NCBI GenBank assembly: GCA_017608295.1
Contig: JAFCGF010000011.1
Coordinates: 8,212 to 72,211 of the forward strand
DNA from: Candidatus Woesearchaeota archaeon
GTDB taxonomy: Archaea > Nanoarchaeota > Nanoarchaeia > Woesearchaeales > JAGVZT01
Direction of reading: 5' to 3'
Length of the DNA stretch: 64,000 nucleotides
Positions within the stretch are counted from its first letter, which is position 1, and every line of letters starts with the position of its first letter. Shown piece by piece: positions 41,876 to 64,000 of this stretch. The translations under genes and the position numbers were made by a program. The notes beneath the pieces were generated by a model. It had not been told where the DNA came from. It did no database searches and was given only the letters and a program-made list of their open reading frames with translations.

Positions 41876-42883
41876 TTACAGATATTTATTAATTCTGCGG
41901 ACCAACCCCGGACCGGCATATATCAACCCGGTATAAACCTGGATTAGAGATGCGCCAGCATCAAGCATTGCCTTGGCATCATCTGGTGTCATAATTCCCC
42001 CTACCCCGATTATGGGTAAAACACCTCCGGTTTCCTTTTGGATATTCGCAACAATCCGCCGACTAATTCCGGTTAATGGCGATCCTGAAAGACCTCCGGC
42101 TTCTTCTCTTTTTAAAGATTGGATATTTTCACGGTTAACGGTTGTATTGCCGATAATAATTCCATCCATATCCACACCAAGGATGGTCTCAACAATATCA
42201 AATAATTCTTTTTCTGATAAATCCGGAGAAACCTTTAATAATATTGGAGTATTAGTTCTTAACCTCTCCCTCGCGTTTTTAAGCTGTAATAGTAAACGCT
42301 CAAGCAAATCCCGAGCCTGAAGACGCCGTAACCCTATTGTATTCGGGGAACTTACATTAACTGCTAAATAATCAGCTATATCAAATAAATTCTCAAACAG
42401 GTAAACATAATCCTGAGCAGCATCCTCAATTGGCGTATCTTTATTCTTCCCGATGTTCACCCCGAGAATCGTGTTGAAATTTTTAACTCCTGATCTTGAT
42501 AACCTACGACGGACGACCTCCACCCCGTCTCCTGGAAATCCCATCCTATTGATCAATGCATGTTCTTCGGGGATACGAAATATGCGAGGCTTTGGATTAC
42601 CCACCTGCGGGTATGGTGTCACTGTGCCAATTTCTATATGACCAAACCCCAAGCTTGCTAAACCACGCCATGCAAGGCCATCTTTATCATAACCAGCAGC
42701 TAAACCAACAGGATTTGGGAATCGCAAACCAAAGATATCTACCGGAAGACCTGTTCCGTTTGAAGCATCGAAGGATTTATTAATAATATATCTAAGGGGT
42801 TCAATCTCGCTTGAGATTGATAATGCCTTTAATGTCAGGGTGTGGATAAATTCAGGATCAATCCGAAATAATAAGTTCTCCAT
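41876..42883 (-). CDS. pyrD: Dihydroorotate dehydrogenase (quinone), class 2
   Basis: This membrane-associated FMN enzyme oxidises dihydroorotate to orotate using quinone. The 335-residue protein has the class 2 N-terminal helices (LLFRIDPEFIHTLTLKAL) and then NPVGLAAGYDKDG, MGFPGDGVEVV, NVSSPNTIGLR (Ser catalytic base, class 2 type), DGIIIGNTTVNRE, GGLSGSPL and IGVGGIMTPDDA. The ATG at 42883 is used rather than an in-frame TTG. It is the last gene of the pyr cluster and is intact. Confidence 0.93.
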   Translation of the reverse strand: MENLLFRIDPEFIHTLTLKALSISSEIEPLRYIINKSFDASNGTGLPVDIFGLRFPNPVGLAAGYDKDGLAWRGLASLGFGHIEIGTVTPYPQVGNPKPRIFRIPEEHALINRMGFPGDGVEVVRRRLSRSGVKNFNTILGVNIGKNKDTPIEDAAQDYVYLFENLFDIADYLAVNVSSPNTIGLRRLQARDLLERLLLQLKNARERLRTNTPILLKVSPDLSEKELFDIVETILGVDMDGIIIGNTTVNRENIQSLKREEAGGLSGSPLTGISRRIVANIQKETGGVLPIIGVGGIMTPDDAKAMLDAGASLIQVYTGLIYAGPGLVRRINKYL

Positions 42884-42916
42884 CAATATAACAGAGTATA
42901 AATGATTGTAAGAAGT

Positions 42917-43165
42917 CTAGAGATTTTCATTTAATAAATTTTTGTTTCTTTGATCTTCAAGAAAATCATAAATATCGGAGAGCATCTCACCTGATATTTT
43001 CCCATCACGTGCATAATATTCCAAAATTCGGGGTAGGTGAATTACAGCGTGAACCTTCAGTCCACGCTCCTTCAATGCAGGACAACCATCTGCACTTCGA
43101 TCGATGAGAACAACCACATCATGGGCACCCAATCCCTTTGATTCCAATTTTTCAATCCCTTCATT
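42917..43165 (-). pseudogene. pyrE: C-terminal remnant of the orotate phosphoribosyltransferase domain
   Basis: In the frame shifted from the pyrF-pyrE gene upstream, NEGIEKLESKGLGAHDVVVLIDR is read directly after YGTK-stop, then VHAVIHLPRILEYYARDG and ISGEMLSDIYDFLED. This is the normal end of PyrE. The segment that should lie between (normally about 25-30 residues with the VVVIDDxxTTGGS PRPP loop) is absent from the DNA. So a deletion of about 80 nt, not a multiple of three, joins the two parts. The remnant has no start of its own and cannot be functional alone. Confidence 0.75.
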
Positions 43166-44303
43166 TTGTCCCGTATGTTTTTGATTCTTTGCGAGGGTAA
43201 ACCATCGACCAATCAGCCAATAAAGAAATTGCAGATGCAATTGGCAGGGCGGCATAAGGGAGAGCAGCAAGATGATCAAACTCAAGCCCGTTCAATATCC
43301 TGATGTATTCTTTTGCAATCAAAGATATTAAGGTCGGGAAACCTGCTAACCGCCGTAGATCGATATAAAATGGGGATTTTGTCCCAGATTTCAAGGTAAA
43401 ATCTCCGAATTTTATACACCCCGCATCCAATAATCCATCAGCAACCTTTATTAAAGATTCTGACAATATCGGTTTTTCTATCGTTAACGCCTTTTTAGGA
43501 TGAGAAACACGTTCCCTGTTGATTAAATCTCGAAATTCTAAAGCAGCATCCCTGGGATTCTGAGATCTGGAAATGCTGCGTGAAATCGGTATTAGAATTC
43601 CCAATCCATCCGACCTTTGGCCACTCTGTAAAGCTAACCTTAGATCCCCACCTTGAGCACCAATACCCGGAGAAAGGATCCATGAACCCGGGGCTGCCTC
43701 CCTCACGGCTGCAAGAGATTCGGGTTTCGTCGCGCCAACCACCAGACCGAGATTATCGTTCTTATTCCAGGTATTTACAAGGTGAGCAATATGGATATAG
43801 AGCGGAATATCCAAAATTTCTCCCTGATACTCTTTAACCCGAATATCTTGAATGTCTTTTGCGCCCGGATTCGATGTTTTACAAAGAAGAAAGGCACCTC
43901 TATCAGGATCCTCAATAAAAGGATGAATAGAATCATATCCAAGGTAAGGGTTCAGGGTGATTGCATCGACACCGAGAATATCAAAAGCAGCCTGTGCGTA
44001 AGCTTTTGCGGTCGAAGAAATATCCCCGCGCTTAGCATCCAGGATTACCGGGATATCATCAGGTATTACACCCAAGACATCCTGCAAAACAGAGATTCCA
44101 TCCGGACCAAGTGCTTCGAAAAATGCAATATTGGGTTTGAAGGCGGCTGCTAAATCACTGGTTGCTTCGACAAGCCTAAAACAAAATTCTCGGACTCCTT
44201 TGTCTGGGGATGAAGCTACATCTTGAGGATGAGGATCAAGACCCACACAAAGCAAGGAATTTATGTCAATTATCCTATTCGTTAACCGTGAAAAAAAAGT
44301 CAT
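43161..44303 (-). CDS. pyrF: OMP decarboxylase fused to a truncated orotate phosphoribosyltransferase
   Basis: Residues 1 to about 270 are a complete type 2 orotidine-5'-phosphate decarboxylase: LCVGLDPHP, KPNIAFFEALGP, the catalytic DAKRGDISSTAKAYA and LSPGIGAQGGD. From about 280 a PyrE domain begins: FGDFTLKSGTKSPFYIDLRRL, LAALPYAALPIASAIS, SMVYPRKESKTYGTK. It then stops at 43161-43163, before the PRPP-binding loop. In related Chloroflexota the fusion runs on to about 480 residues; this one ends at 380. OMP decarboxylase activity should be intact; the phosphoribosyltransferase should be dead unless the sequence is wrong. Confidence 0.85.
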   Translation of the reverse strand: MTFFSRLTNRIIDINSLLCVGLDPHPQDVASSPDKGVREFCFRLVEATSDLAAAFKPNIAFFEALGPDGISVLQDVLGVIPDDIPVILDAKRGDISSTAKAYAQAAFDILGVDAITLNPYLGYDSIHPFIEDPDRGAFLLCKTSNPGAKDIQDIRVKEYQGEILDIPLYIHIAHLVNTWNKNDNLGLVVGATKPESLAAVREAAPGSWILSPGIGAQGGDLRLALQSGQRSDGLGILIPISRSISRSQNPRDAALEFRDLINRERVSHPKKALTIEKPILSESLIKVADGLLDAGCIKFGDFTLKSGTKSPFYIDLRRLAGFPTLISLIAKEYIRILNGLEFDHLAALPYAALPIASAISLLADWSMVYPRKESKTYGTK

Positions 44304-44350: not shown

Positions 44351-45328
44351 TTACGCTTTACCGAGGACCATCGCCAATAATGCCATCCTGACATAAAGCC
44401 CATATTCCATTTGTCGAAAATATGAAGCTCTTGGGTCATCATCAAAATCCATGCTAATCTCAGTAACCCGCGGCAGGGGATGCATTACGATCATACGCTC
44501 TTTAGCTTTTTTCATCATTTCAGGGTCAATAACATATGCTCCTGCAACTTTTTCATATTCCTCTAAAGCAGAGAACCTTTCCTTTTGAACCCGGGTGACA
44601 TAAAGTACATCGGTATCAGGCAAGACCTGATCGACCTCAGTGTATTCTTTTTGTTCAATTCCGAGCGCTTCCAGTTCAGCAATAATCTCTGCTGGCATTC
44701 GCAGCACCTCTGGGGATATATAATTTAGTTTCACCTTGTAAAGGGAAAGTAGACGAGCCAAAGAATGAACTGTCCGGCCAAATTTCAAATCACCCAACAT
44801 AGTGATGGTCAATCCATCGATATAACCAAGTTCTTCTTTTATGGTTAAGCTGTCGAGGAGGGCTTGAGTGGGATGTTCTCCAATTCCATCGCCGGCGTTT
44901 ATTACAGGCTTTTTAGCAAATTTCGCCGCGAGAGATGCTGATCCAACCTCCGGATGTCGGATAACAATAACATCTGCATAGCATTCCAATGTCCGGATGG
45001 TATCAGGCAAACTTTCGCCTTTAGAAACGGATGAGTATTTAACTTCATTAATTGGTATAACCGATCCGCCCAACCTCTCCATCGCAGCAGTAAAACTGGA
45101 TGATGTTCTCGTGGATGGCTCATAAAATAGATTTGCTAATATTTTTCCTTTTAGCAGATCAAATGTACCAATCCTTTCCACCATAACGCGCATTTCATGC
45201 GCAACTGCAAATATATACTCCAAATCTTGCCGATTGAACTGCCTCACAGAAACGATGTCCATCCCGTACCAAGGCGACATACGCTGATCGCCAAAGGGAA
45301 GGTGAGGGTTGCTGGGTTGGATATTCAT
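44351..45328 (-). CDS. pyrB: Aspartate carbamoyltransferase catalytic subunit
   Basis: This enzyme joins carbamoyl phosphate and aspartate, the first committed step to UMP. The 325 residues contain the carbamoyl-phosphate loop [11 protein letters not shown], the [11 protein letters not shown] loop with its Lys, [25 protein letters not shown] and [17 protein letters not shown] lies before the ATG. No regulatory pyrI adjoins. The frame is intact, in contrast to its neighbours. Confidence 0.95.
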
Positions 45329-45364: not shown

Positions 45365-45436
45365 TTATCTTATATTTCTACCAAATCCTGGTTCAGCCAA
45401 TACCTGACCATCTTGAAACGCGATTCTTCCACGCAG
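45365..45436 (-). pseudogene. pyrC: Out-of-frame C-terminal end of pyrC
   Basis: This is the DNA for LRGRIAFQDGQVLAEPGFGR and NIR, in the frame shifted from the pyrC frame and lacking its own start. It is the conserved closing segment of CAD-like dihydroorotases. Confidence 0.65.
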
Positions 45437-46418
45437 GAAACCGCCCTCTTACCTTGACCCCTTCAAAAGGGGTCCATCCACATTTTGAGTATTGGTCCTC
45501 TGCACGTATGGTGAATTCTTCATTGGGATCGACCTCAATCCAAGTATCTTTCTGGTCTGCCAACTTGAAAATGCGTTTGGGATTGGTATACATGCGTTCT
45601 ACCAGATCGTCCACTGTCATTTTCCCGCGGTGAACTGCAGTGAGTAAGAGAGGCAAGGCAGTCTCCAAACCGGGAAAGCCAGGAGGCGGTGTATCACTGT
45701 CCTTCTCATCTAACGTATGCGGCGCATGGTCTGTGGCAAAACAATCAATTACCTTCAAGTTACTCCACAGGGCTTCTCGATCTTCAGGAGATGCAATTCG
45801 AGGTCGAACTTCGGTACGGCCAGGATACATGCCACCATGACTTAACCTGGAATCATCATTTGAGGATAAAAATAAATGATGCGGTGCTACCTCACAAGTG
45901 ACCTTAATTCCACTTTCCTTAGCCTTTCTGATCGTTATGATCTCTTCCCTAGAGGAGATATGAGCAATATGTACAGGACGATCATACATGGCTGCAAAAA
46001 GGATTGCTGCAGCCATGGTCCTGCCCTCCGAATGGACAACAATTGGAAAATCTTTTGGCCAATTTTGGAAATGATCATGCCAATGGGTCATAGAATCTAA
46101 CCGTAATTTGCCATAGGTCATATCCAAGTACATTTTAAGACCGGCAACTTTCCGGGCAACCTTAGCGATCGATGGGGCATTCTCAGGGCCTGCACCTACA
46201 AAATGAGCATAATCACAACGCGCCTTTGCTCTGGCAATATTCAGCGTGCTCTGCAATGCGGAGGGAGTAACTACAGGTGGATTTGTGTTTGGCATTGCCA
46301 ACAGCAAGGTTATACCCCCAGCTAGAGCGGCTGCGGTGCCAGAGTCCCAATCTTCTTTATGAGACGCTCCTGGTTCACGTAAATGAACATGAACATCAAT
46401 CAATCCAGGAAGTTTCAT
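45393..46418 (-). CDS. pyrC: Dihydroorotase (CAD-like), C-terminus frameshifted
   Basis: This zinc enzyme cyclises carbamoyl aspartate. The 341 residues show the metal motif DVHVHLREPG, GGITLLLAMPNTNPP, MYLDMTYGK, HIAHIS, CEVAPHHLFLS and FATDHAPHT, all intact. The reading frame leaves the family after GVKVRGR. In the next frame the DNA encodes LRGRIAFQDGQVLAEPGFGR and then NIR-stop, the standard C-terminal strand, ending at 45365. A one-base deletion or two-base insertion at about 45436-45442 would restore it. Catalysis might survive, because the active site precedes the shift, but folding may suffer. Confidence 0.85.
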   Translation of the reverse strand: MKLPGLIDVHVHLREPGASHKEDWDSGTAAALAGGITLLLAMPNTNPPVVTPSALQSTLNIARAKARCDYAHFVGAGPENAPSIAKVARKVAGLKMYLDMTYGKLRLDSMTHWHDHFQNWPKDFPIVVHSEGRTMAAAILFAAMYDRPVHIAHISSREEIITIRKAKESGIKVTCEVAPHHLFLSSNDDSRLSHGGMYPGRTEVRPRIASPEDREALWSNLKVIDCFATDHAPHTLDEKDSDTPPPGFPGLETALPLLLTAVHRGKMTVDDLVERMYTNPKRIFKLADQKDTWIEVDPNEEFTIRAEDQYSKCGWTPFEGVKVRGRFPAWKNRVSRWSGIG

Positions 46419-52843: not shown

Positions 52844-54283
52844 TTAGATCAAATCTGCTCCCGGTAGGCGGTATATAAAGTCCCCCATGCCTTTTCTTCC
52901 ATGCCAATCAGGACCATCGACAATCAATTTCCCTCGTAAAAATACTTTCTCGGGAAAACCGATAAGATCCCACCCTTCATAAAGGTTATAGTCCGTTCTT
53001 TGCTGTGAAAAATTCACCCCGTAATTTACAACTTTTTCAGGGTCCCAGATTACAATATCAGCATCCGACCCAGGCATAAGGCACCCTTTCCTGGGATAAA
53101 GACCAAATATCTTTGCCGGATTAGTACTCATCAACGCGACAAATTGGTTAGGTGTAATCCGCCCTTTACTCACACCTTCAGACCAGAGAACGGGCATACG
53201 GTCACCAACGCCTGGCAGACCATTTGGTATCTTTGTAAAATCGTCTACACCAAGTTCTTTTCCGGGAATCGCGATTTCCTCGTTTTCATAAATTACTGGT
53301 TTAGTTCCATCAAAAAAGAAGGGACAATGGTCTGTTGCCATAACCTGGATTGTTCCACCAATCACCCCATCCCAAAGTCGCTGGTTATCAACCATTTTTC
53401 GCATGGGGGGCGAACATATCCATTTAGCTCCATCCGACCGTTTTAAGTGTTCTTGAGTAAAAAATAAGTATTGAGGACAGGTCTCCCCCATAACTGGAAG
53501 ACCCTGATCTCTGGCGTATTCAAGCATATCTACTTCACCCGCAACATTCATATGAACAAGGTAAAGTGGTGCTCCTGTCTCCGCTGCCAATGAAAATCCT
53601 CTCATAGCGGCCTCCACAGCCCCCCAGGAAGGTCTTGTCCTGGCATGCCAAATTGGAGACGTATGACCAGCAGCAACCGCTTCAGAAACGAGGACATCGA
53701 TTACATCCCCGTTTTCTGCGTGGAGGAGTGTGAGCATACCATTTTCCTTTGCTATGCGCATGGTTTTGAATATATCACCATCCTGGATACGCAGGCGATT
53801 GTTATATGCAGTAAAAACTTTTAATGTTGTGATCCCTTCATCCAGCAATGATGGGATATCTCGTCCGACACTCTCATTAAAATGCGTGATGTTCATATGG
53901 AACCCAAAGTCAACTGCGGCCTTTGGATCAGCTTTCTTTCGCCAGGTCTCAACAGACCTTCTAAGCATGCTATCTTTTTTTATTGAACCAGCGGGAATAT
54001 GAGGCACAAAATCGATTACTGTCGTTGTCCCTCCAAATGCGGCTGCTTTATGACCAGAATAATGATCATCAGATGACACCGTACCAAACATTGGTAAATC
54101 AAAATGGGTATGTGGATCGACCCCACCAGGCATAATTACTTTTCCGCTACAATCATATACATCCGCAGTAGAAGAAGTGAGCCCCTTAGTGATAGATTTG
54201 ATTTTTTCATCTTCAACCAGGATATCTGCAATGAAGGTCTCTGAGGCGGTAATAACCGTTCCATTCTTTAACAATACTGACAT
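52844..54283 (-). CDS. hydA: Dihydropyrimidinase (hydantoinase)
   Basis: This zinc amidohydrolase opens dihydrouracil, dihydrothymine or hydantoins in reductive pyrimidine breakdown. The 479 residues have GGVDPHTHFDLP, the carboxylated Lys in TTLKVFTAYNN, HAENGDVID, LYLVHMNVAGE, ATDHCPF and NGLPGVGDRMPVL. The substrate-binding end GRKGMGDFIYR is typical. D-hydantoinase activity is the main alternative. No other pyrimidine-catabolic gene adjoins, although a nucleoside-type transporter lies 8 kb away. Confidence 0.9.
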   Translation of the reverse strand: MSVLLKNGTVITASETFIADILVEDEKIKSITKGLTSSTADVYDCSGKVIMPGGVDPHTHFDLPMFGTVSSDDHYSGHKAAAFGGTTTVIDFVPHIPAGSIKKDSMLRRSVETWRKKADPKAAVDFGFHMNITHFNESVGRDIPSLLDEGITTLKVFTAYNNRLRIQDGDIFKTMRIAKENGMLTLLHAENGDVIDVLVSEAVAAGHTSPIWHARTRPSWGAVEAAMRGFSLAAETGAPLYLVHMNVAGEVDMLEYARDQGLPVMGETCPQYLFFTQEHLKRSDGAKWICSPPMRKMVDNQRLWDGVIGGTIQVMATDHCPFFFDGTKPVIYENEEIAIPGKELGVDDFTKIPNGLPGVGDRMPVLWSEGVSKGRITPNQFVALMSTNPAKIFGLYPRKGCLMPGSDADIVIWDPEKVVNYGVNFSQQRTDYNLYEGWDLIGFPEKVFLRGKLIVDGPDWHGRKGMGDFIYRLPGADLI

Positions 54284-61391: not shown

Positions 61392-62360
61392 TTATAAGCC
61401 TCGCTCTCCGCGAATATACGGCAAACCTAGAGCAGCCGGGGCACCTAATCGTTTTCTAATTGCCTCACGAGAGCCAATTACAAGAACAATAATTGTAAAC
61501 GCGTATGGGAGCATCTGCAGGAAGAAACCCCAATATGGATTGTAATAAAAAGGATTTCTAAACCCAAGGATCATTAATGGACCCTGGATATCCAAGATCA
61601 GCCGTCGGAGCGCACCAAATGCATACGATCCAAAAGCTGCACGAACAGGGTCCCATTGTGCAAATATTACCAAACCCACTGCTATCCAGCCCTGTCCAGC
61701 TGTGGTTAATTCACTGAACCACCCAGGTGAAATTGCCAAACTGATTGTAGCACCAGCCAACCCAGCAAATACGCCTCCAACAAATACGTAAATATAGCGA
61801 AGACGGTAAACACTGATCCCTAAGGTGTCCGCTGCTGCTGGATATTCTCCAACTGCTCGTAAGTGCATTCCTGGTCTTGTGCGGTAAATGTAATACCAGG
61901 TCAGAGGTACGATCAAGAAACCAATATAAACCATTATGCTGTGATTTGTAAACAAGATAGGTCCAAGGAAAGGAATATCCTTAATCAATGGAATCGAAAA
62001 TCTTGGCAAGAGAGAAACAGTTCCAGCTTTACTCAATCCTTCTCCCAACACTAAACTTATTCCTGTACCTAAAAATGTCAAGGAAAGACCGCTAACAACC
62101 TGATCCGCTTGAAGATGAATCGTGATGAATGCGTGAACCTGGCTTATTAGACCAGCTGCAACCATTGCAACCAGGAGGCCCAACCAGGGATTTCCTGAGG
62201 CAACAGCAGTACTGAAGGCACTCATCGCACCGATCAGCATCATACCCTCTACTCCCAGGTTCATGATACCAGATCGTTCAGCAAATATCTCACCAATTGT
62301 GGCAAACAGTAATACTGTCCCGGATGCGATTCCAGCCTGCAGGATGATCAAAATACTCAT
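61392..62360 (-). CDS. BMP-type ABC transporter permease (nucleoside import), second permease
   Basis: This 322-residue permease has about nine helices and family motifs FAERSGIMNLGVEGMML and GASLALAISPGWFSELTTAGQGWIAVGLVIF-type sequence. It belongs to the branched-chain/ribose-type permease group found in purine/pyrimidine nucleoside importers such as NupC-YufQ. It is the downstream partner of the permease at 62373. Nucleoside specificity is inferred from the group; no binding-protein gene is in view. Confidence 0.82.
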   Translation of the reverse strand: MSILIILQAGIASGTVLLFATIGEIFAERSGIMNLGVEGMMLIGAMSAFSTAVASGNPWLGLLVAMVAAGLISQVHAFITIHLQADQVVSGLSLTFLGTGISLVLGEGLSKAGTVSLLPRFSIPLIKDIPFLGPILFTNHSIMVYIGFLIVPLTWYYIYRTRPGMHLRAVGEYPAAADTLGISVYRLRYIYVFVGGVFAGLAGATISLAISPGWFSELTTAGQGWIAVGLVIFAQWDPVRAAFGSYAFGALRRLILDIQGPLMILGFRNPFYYNPYWGFFLQMLPYAFTIIVLVIGSREAIRKRLGAPAALGLPYIRGERGL

Positions 62361-62372
62361 ATAGGTTCTCCT

Positions 62373-63515
62373 CTATGCCTCAGCCTCAATGCGCTCAATC
62401 CGAACACGATACCTCAAAAAGAAGTCACTGGCGATCAGAGATACCAGAATAATACCTTGAATCATCTTTGGGATACCTGACGGTTGAATTTCTCTCCCGG
62501 CGAGGATCAAGGCACCAAACAGAACAGAGACCAATATAACGGCTAATGGGTTGAGCTTAGCAAGCCAGGCGATAATAATACCTGTGAACCCATAACCTGG
62601 TGAAATTGCGCCCTGCAAACGATGTACTACACCAGTAATTTCAGACATACCAGCTAACCCAGCTAAAGCTCCAGAAACTGCCATAACCAGGATTGTATTC
62701 CTTTTAATATTGATACCTGCGTATTCAGCTGCTTGAGGGTTATCGCCAATCAATCTAATTTCATATCCCCATCGACTTCTATATAGGATAAACCAAACAA
62801 CCACAGCAGCAATAATTCCCAGCACCAATCCAAAATGTGTCGTTAATCCACGAAATATTGGCACTTGCTCTGCAAAGTCGGATAATCTCGGAAGCCAGGC
62901 GTTTCTTTCAAACATCTTGCTCATTTGAAAACCGCCATCACTCCAAATTGCAAAAATAAAATAATTGTTCCAAGCCACCGCTATATAATTCAACATCAAG
63001 GTTGATATGACTTCATTAACATTGAACCCTGCTTTTAAATATCCGGGGATGAAGCCCCAGGCTGCACCAGCAAGCATACCCATCATTATCATAGCGGGTA
63101 TGAATAACCATATAGAGGTCCCTTCCGGAAATATCGGCAATAGGACCACGATACTGGCGCCAAAAGCTCCAAGGTAAAACTGCCCTTCTGCTCCAATGTT
63201 CCATAAGCGCATTCGAAAGGCTATTGAACATGCCAAACCAACCAGAATCAGAGGGGTTGCTTTGACCAGGGTATCAGAAAAAACGCCCAAGCTGCCAAAG
63301 GAAGCTCGACCAATATGAGCATATGATTTTATTGGGTTCCCCCCTGACCACGCGATGACGATTCCTCCAATTATCAATGCAAAAACCACGGCGCCGAGTG
63401 AAACTACAAGAGGGTACCATTTGGCAGGTTCTTCTAGCCTAGGTTCAAACCTGATTCTGTAGGGGAATTTCTTGCGGCCAGGTTCTAATAAATCTGATTT
63501 TGATGTTTCAGCCAT
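62373..63515 (-). CDS. BMP-type ABC transporter permease (nucleoside import), first permease
   Basis: This 380-residue permease has a cytoplasmic N-terminal stretch and about nine helices. Typical elements are RMRLWNIGAEGQFYLGAFGAS, PGYLKAGFNVNEVISTLMLNYIA and GINIKRNTILVMAVSGALAGLAG. It pairs with the permease at 61392 (12 nt downstream) and the ATPase at 63522 (6 nt upstream), so all three are one transcript. Confidence 0.82.
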   Translation of the reverse strand: MAETSKSDLLEPGRKKFPYRIRFEPRLEEPAKWYPLVVSLGAVVFALIIGGIVIAWSGGNPIKSYAHIGRASFGSLGVFSDTLVKATPLILVGLACSIAFRMRLWNIGAEGQFYLGAFGASIVVLLPIFPEGTSIWLFIPAMIMMGMLAGAAWGFIPGYLKAGFNVNEVISTLMLNYIAVAWNNYFIFAIWSDGGFQMSKMFERNAWLPRLSDFAEQVPIFRGLTTHFGLVLGIIAAVVVWFILYRSRWGYEIRLIGDNPQAAEYAGINIKRNTILVMAVSGALAGLAGMSEITGVVHRLQGAISPGYGFTGIIIAWLAKLNPLAVILVSVLFGALILAGREIQPSGIPKMIQGIILVSLIASDFFLRYRVRIERIEAEA

Positions 63516-63521
63516 ACCGGG

Positions 63522-64000
63522 CTACTCCAAATCCTGAATTTGTTCCAACTTAGTACCAGTCATCATCTGACCAATCATATCAATATTTCCATCCTTCACC
63601 TCCCCCATGATCTTGCCCTCATAGATTACATAAACACGGTCGCTGAGCGCCATCAGTTCATCTAATTCTTCAGAAACGAGGAGGATTGCAGCACCTGCCT
63701 CTCGCTGCGATAATAATAACCTCTGAACACCTTCTATGGCACCAACGTCTAAACCACGGGTAGGCTGCATGGCCAGCAGGAACGCAGGTTCACCTGAAAT
63801 CTCACGGGCGAGAATGACCCTTTGCAAGTTACCCCCCGATAGTAAACGAACAGGTGTCTCAACCGTCGGGACCATTATTTCATAACTGCCTTTTAAGTCT
63901 TCAGCGAAACCCCTTGCAGTTTTCATATCTACAACCCACCCATGTGCTATTGGTGGGTGGCGATATTTCTTCATGATGACATTATCTGTTACGCTAAGAT
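63522..64000 (-). CDS. Nucleoside ABC transporter ATP-binding protein (partial, cut by window edge)
   Basis: This is the C-terminal half of a two-domain (ribose/nucleoside-type) ATPase. The second nucleotide-binding domain shows the signature RLLSGGNLQRVILAREIS, a Walker B region FLLAMQPTRGLDVG (where LLAMQP has Gln-Pro in place of the more usual Asp-Glu-Pro, as is common in this group's domain) and VSEELDELMALSDRV. The open frame continues upstream of the ATG at 63974 as LSVTDNVIMKKY, so the gene runs off the window. Confidence 0.85.
   Translation of the reverse strand, partial: LSVTDNVIMKKYRHPPIAHGWVVDMKTARGFAEDLKGSYEIMVPTVETPVRLLSGGNLQRVILAREISGEPAFLLAMQPTRGLDVGAIEGVQRLLLSQREAGAAILLVSEELDELMALSDRVYVIYEGKIMGEVKDGNIDMIGQMMTGTKLEQIQDLE

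Follow-up and report, generated by a model that had tools for sequence, protein, structure and literature searches.

Whether the pyrF-pyrE fusion gene of this operon can still supply orotate phosphoribosyltransferase (OPRT) is the question raised by the locus. The window, i.e. the whole stretch of 64,000 nucleotides that was analysed, carries the following pyr genes and parts.

45393..46418, (-) strand: pyrC, dihydroorotase, open; best match TIGR00857 at 266 bits, slightly below the cut-off of 279
44351..45328, (-) strand: pyrB, aspartate carbamoyltransferase, open; TIGR00670 at 370 bits, cut-off 237
43161..44303, (-) strand: pyrF-pyrE fusion, truncated; 380 aa, stop codon TGA at 43163-43161
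43163..43164, (-) strand: deletion junction; 1 nt in place of the 27-residue PRPP-loop segment
42917..43162, (-) strand: orphaned PyrE tail (EGIEKLESKGLGAHDVVVLIDR...), in the other frame and open to its own stop
41876..42886, (-) strand: pyrD, quinone-dependent dihydroorotate dehydrogenase, open; NF003652 at 429 bits, cut-off 267

The same gene order, pyrC-pyrB-pyrFE-pyrD, was found at the loci L074, L083, L001 and L003, and no decay was visible in the window's pyrB, pyrC, pyrD or pyrF. The best four named records were from Anaerolineales, Chloroflexi and Anaerolinea MAGs, with 52-55% identity, and the host is on this basis most likely an uncultured bacterium of the Anaerolineae.

The deletion is present in the assembly. 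The truncated fusion contained the whole PyrF (ODCase) domain and PyrE as far as YPRKESKTYGTK, where the initial annotation had placed the break; the ORF (44303..43161, minus strand) encoded the C terminus ...SMVYPRKESKTYGTK followed directly by the stop, i.e. it ended in GTK. The rest of PyrE lay, as had also been stated, in the shifted frame at 43162..42917, with the tail GIEKLESKGLGAHDVVVLIDR... running from 43159 to its stop at 42917 and preceded by an E codon at 43162-43160. In the alignment, this stop fell 6 residues beyond the end of P0002, the nearest relative (83% identical), which was intact. Identity to P0002 was 220/262 in the PyrF half, 90/105 in the PyrE head and 55/74 (74%) in the PyrE tail; the regions flanking the loss are both conserved, as had been described, and on these alignments the match of head and tail to P0002 is not one of chance.

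The homologues contained a segment of the form AQxEG...VVIDDLxxTGxSKx between head and tail in 16 of 17 aligned sequences, the other, P0003, ending earlier. A larger set comprised the best 120 of 7999 scored sequences minus the window's own (n=119). A strict loop motif with a gap of exactly 27 residues was found in 114/119 of these, and four more (P0085, P0087, P0112 and P0117), counted by eye, had a loop of variant sequence that is also spaced at 27 residues, so that 27 residues (81 nt) including the PRPP loop separated head and tail in 118/119; P0003 ends before the segment and was not judgeable for loop spacing. A single nt in the window stands against 81 nt in the homologues, which makes the net change -80 nt, in agreement with the internal deletion of about 80 nt first proposed. 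The PRPP-binding loop of the OPRT family is of the type VVVIDDxxTTGGS, also seen in the homologues, and a six-frame scan of the whole window gave no match to the PRPP-loop motif, as expected if the loop is missing from the DNA. The missing stretch aligned with the PRPP-loop part of the Leishmania UMP synthase 3qw4. Such a deletion would have taken out the PRPP-binding loop and put the remainder of PyrE out of frame.

Family scores were consistent with this structure. The ODCase model (TIGR02127) scored 252.8 bits (cut-off 110.6) and covered positions 1-257 of 261, while the OPRT model (TIGR00336) reached 67.7 bits against a cut-off of 106.8, over positions 3-98 of 173. The region YPRKExKxYGTK, which has the role of catalytic loop in OPRT, was present as YPRKESKTYGTK, and the PRPP-binding loop was absent from the gene. 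The domain order, ODCase followed by OPRT, was that of the bifunctional PyrF-PyrE family (NF004034) and of 3qw4, to which the intact P0002 aligned over residues 1-475 of 482 (E 2.2e-129). Unlike either, the window's gene had no 27-residue PRPP-loop segment and was out of frame, and as a full-length fusion it scored 289.8 bits against the NF004034 cut-off of 656. Pfam returned OMPdecase alone for the window's protein; this is a weak test for PyrE here because the intact P0002 was also under the Pribosyltran cut-off (21.7 vs 26.3). Judged by established knowledge of the family, the locus would still code for a complete ODCase (PyrF) domain and could not encode OPRT, as had been predicted initially.

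Conserved and adjacent head and tail sequences are what would be seen if recoding or bypassing at translation restored a working PyrE. The chance of this is vanishingly small, since the PRPP loop is missing from the DNA and no change of frame restores it; moreover, the ATG overlapping the stop opens the third frame and not that of the tail. The idea that the tail is translated on its own into a functional enzyme was also considered and rejected, as the product would be without the loop and the N-terminal half. The tail-frame ORF starts with TTG at position 43285 and contains an ATG near 43255; these two codons precede the junction, in sequence that is PyrE in another frame, and further TTG or GTG codons lie inside the tail.

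A real and recent 80-nt deletion in the pyrE half of the fusion, abolishing OPRT from this locus, is the likely explanation. The nearest relatives are intact, and the broken form was represented by one sequence on one contig among the best 120 of 7999 scored. That the event was recent, as originally suggested, holds as a statement on the sequence: the intact P0002, the open tail and its 74% identity fit a young lesion and do not date it. Among 41 intact pairs with heads 82-90% identical, which share sequences and are not independent, tail identity averaged 81.9% (sd 7.9), and tails as low as 74.3% occurred in 14.6% of the pairs. The window's tail (74%) lies within the range of these pairs. It is less similar to P0002 than the head is (86%), and slight drift may already have begun.

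The initial annotation had also suggested a search for short direct repeats at the ends of the deletion. Of 16 loci of intact but less closely related genomes, 13 matched the pattern, and in some of them the edges of the loop segment looked similar by eye, as in L065 with CAAATT at both edges. Such edges hint at slippage without fixing the breakpoints, and could also favour misjoining. The latter would apply if the assembly had followed a rare deletion path or a chimeric join, with most cells carrying an intact pyrE, an artefact or minority variant that we regard as unlikely. It would suit the presence of the deletion on one contig only and the open state of the other pyr genes. The shared edge words of about 6 bases are, however, far shorter than the k-mers usual in assembly, and an NCBIfam scan of 40 further ORFs of the window showed no second split gene, 12 of these ORFs being without a match at E 1e-25 and hence not judged for splitting. 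A loss of 80 nt is unusual for a base-calling error. The deletion is probably real in the cell.

Relatives were compared in a context sample of 101 genomes around G052. In a set of 61 genomes around G003, 42 had a match to P0002, and that of G052 was the best (61%). PyrE (TIGR00336) was matched at E 0.001 in 100/101 of these genomes and was over the cut-off in 61/101, with one copy in each; the cut-off is strict, being passed by 10 of 14 control genomes although all 14 had a match. The best PyrE match below it (55 bits) was a fragment at a contig end. These counts bear on the possibility that the deletion is real but harmless, OPRT being made from a second, unlinked pyrE. PyrE is unfused and adjoins PyrF in some relatives (the genomes of L013 and L050), and therefore need not be fused. 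Against this, none of the 61 PyrE-bearing relatives had a second PyrE over the cut-off, and no PRPP-loop motif occurred elsewhere in the window. A compensating second copy is thus very unlikely, and pyrE is presumably absent from the remainder of the genome.

PyrB (TIGR00670) was over its curated cut-off in 82/101 genomes, with scores split between at least 341 bits, in 63 genomes, and at most 262 bits. In the analyst's judgement only the upper group was counted as PyrB, because lower-scoring proteins also occurred as a further copy beside a high-scoring one. Both PyrE and an upper-group PyrB were found in 58/101 genomes; 36/101 had no match to P0002, and in 35/101 an upper-group PyrB, a PyrE over the cut-off and a P0002 match were all missing. 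The latter were labelled as lacking the pathway on these three criteria. The pathway is thus often absent in the genomes examined, about a third of which appear to be without it. The control gene pyrH was over its cut-off in 92/101 genomes (9 below) and in 32 of the 35 lacking the pathway; the corresponding counts were 56/101 and 4/35 for class-2 pyrD, and 84/101 and 26/35 for upp. Two of the pathway-lacking genomes, G115 and G135 (about 2.2 Mb), each had one contig of about 2.24 Mb, and because of this a binning gap is an unlikely cause of the absence in them.

The distribution of the label was followed on a PNPase tree of 91 genomes and the window, built by a quick method (LG+G4); the other 10 of the 101 genomes, with weak or short PNPase matches, were omitted, and long-branch warnings applied to G099 and to the G054-G066 meeting point. 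The window was placed beside G074, which has PyrE and whose row is partial (SH-aLRT 98). Both belonged to a group of 19 rows, 18 of them besides the window: 10 without the pathway (G064, G069, G070, G072, G077, G080, G081, G084, G085 and G086) and 8 with PyrE. In the parsimony count, which used 87 rows (31 lacking and 56 having the pathway) after 4 partial rows were dropped, the label required at least 20 changes, against a mean of 25.5 and a minimum of 19 in 100 label shuffles. The controls on this tree gave 7 changes for 7 absences of pyrH and 10 for 12 of upp. Absence of the pathway was far commoner than that of pyrH, yet barely clustered, and for this reason part of it may reflect draft gaps and 20 losses are not claimed. 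The clade of G065, G094, G105, G115 and G135, all lacking the pathway, is the most secure case of one loss. In the group as a whole, loss looks common, though patchy and perhaps in part an effect of draft gaps.

Five genomes with PyrB and without PyrE over the cut-off were checked for parallel lesions. G051, G093 and G096 were rejected as such, their loci running into contig ends. G090 had PyrB and PyrF and no PyrE in mid-contig; its pyrH was also not over the cut-off, and the genome may be incomplete. G125 had pyrC, pyrB and pyrF, with neither PyrE nor class-2 PyrD over the cut-off, at a locus that reaches the contig end; it could be a second, later stage of pathway loss. As further cases of loss beginning with OPRT, G125 and G090 are weak. 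At the G125 locus (L078, 5132-6721), PyrF continued in frame into unrelated sequence where PyrE is expected. In the converse class, PyrE without a high-scoring PyrB, were G073, G074 and G120; a run of 1036 N occupied the pyrB site in G073, and a contig end cut the locus in G074. Separately, P0003 (332 aa, from a 3091-bp contig) ranked second among the best 120 of 7999 homologues, with 81% identity across 86% of the query; it left the family after FTLKSG and ended soon afterwards. Either a further broken pyrE or a chimeric contig may account for this.

The kind of event proposed is ordinary gene loss. With pyrB, pyrC, pyrD and pyrF still open, de novo UMP synthesis would be blocked between orotate and OMP, the pyr operon would be at an early stage of decay, and the organism would most likely depend on salvaged uracil or uridine, which should compensate for the lost OPRT. 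The most likely reading is that of a recent pyrE deletion in a group whose members frequently lack pyrimidine synthesis and as a rule salvage uracil. A broader proposal, that the de novo pathway was lost repeatedly in this Anaerolineae-like group and that the window captures the first step, with OPRT going first while PyrB, PyrC, PyrD and PyrF are intact, is tentative and perhaps somewhat doubtful. If real, the locus would be a snapshot of a bacterial lineage turning dependent on external pyrimidines, and media for its cultivation should include uracil or uridine.

Defects of pyrE in bacteria are exemplified by rph-pyrE of E. coli K-12. As in that strain, OPRT would be reduced or lost in the window while the rest of the pathway is present; the two differ in that the lesion in the window is a deletion of coding sequence, the bacterium is uncultured and the operon has a fused pyrFE. 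Among the titles and abstract openings listed from open-licence literature, none dealt with pyrimidine auxotrophy in Anaerolineae, and PMC8129789 had no bearing on the subject.

Two other loci of the window were recorded. A dihydropyrimidinase/hydantoinase gene at 52844-54283 (-) scored 508 bits with TIGR02033, over the cut-off of 393, and a link to the use of outside pyrimidines is possible. An ABC transporter at 61392-63974 (-) comprised two BPD_transp_2 permeases and, near the window end, an ATP-binding piece, the latter named by eye with no Pfam family match. The transporter's best NCBIfam names, under their cut-offs, were putative B6 transporters, and nucleosides are a possible substrate.
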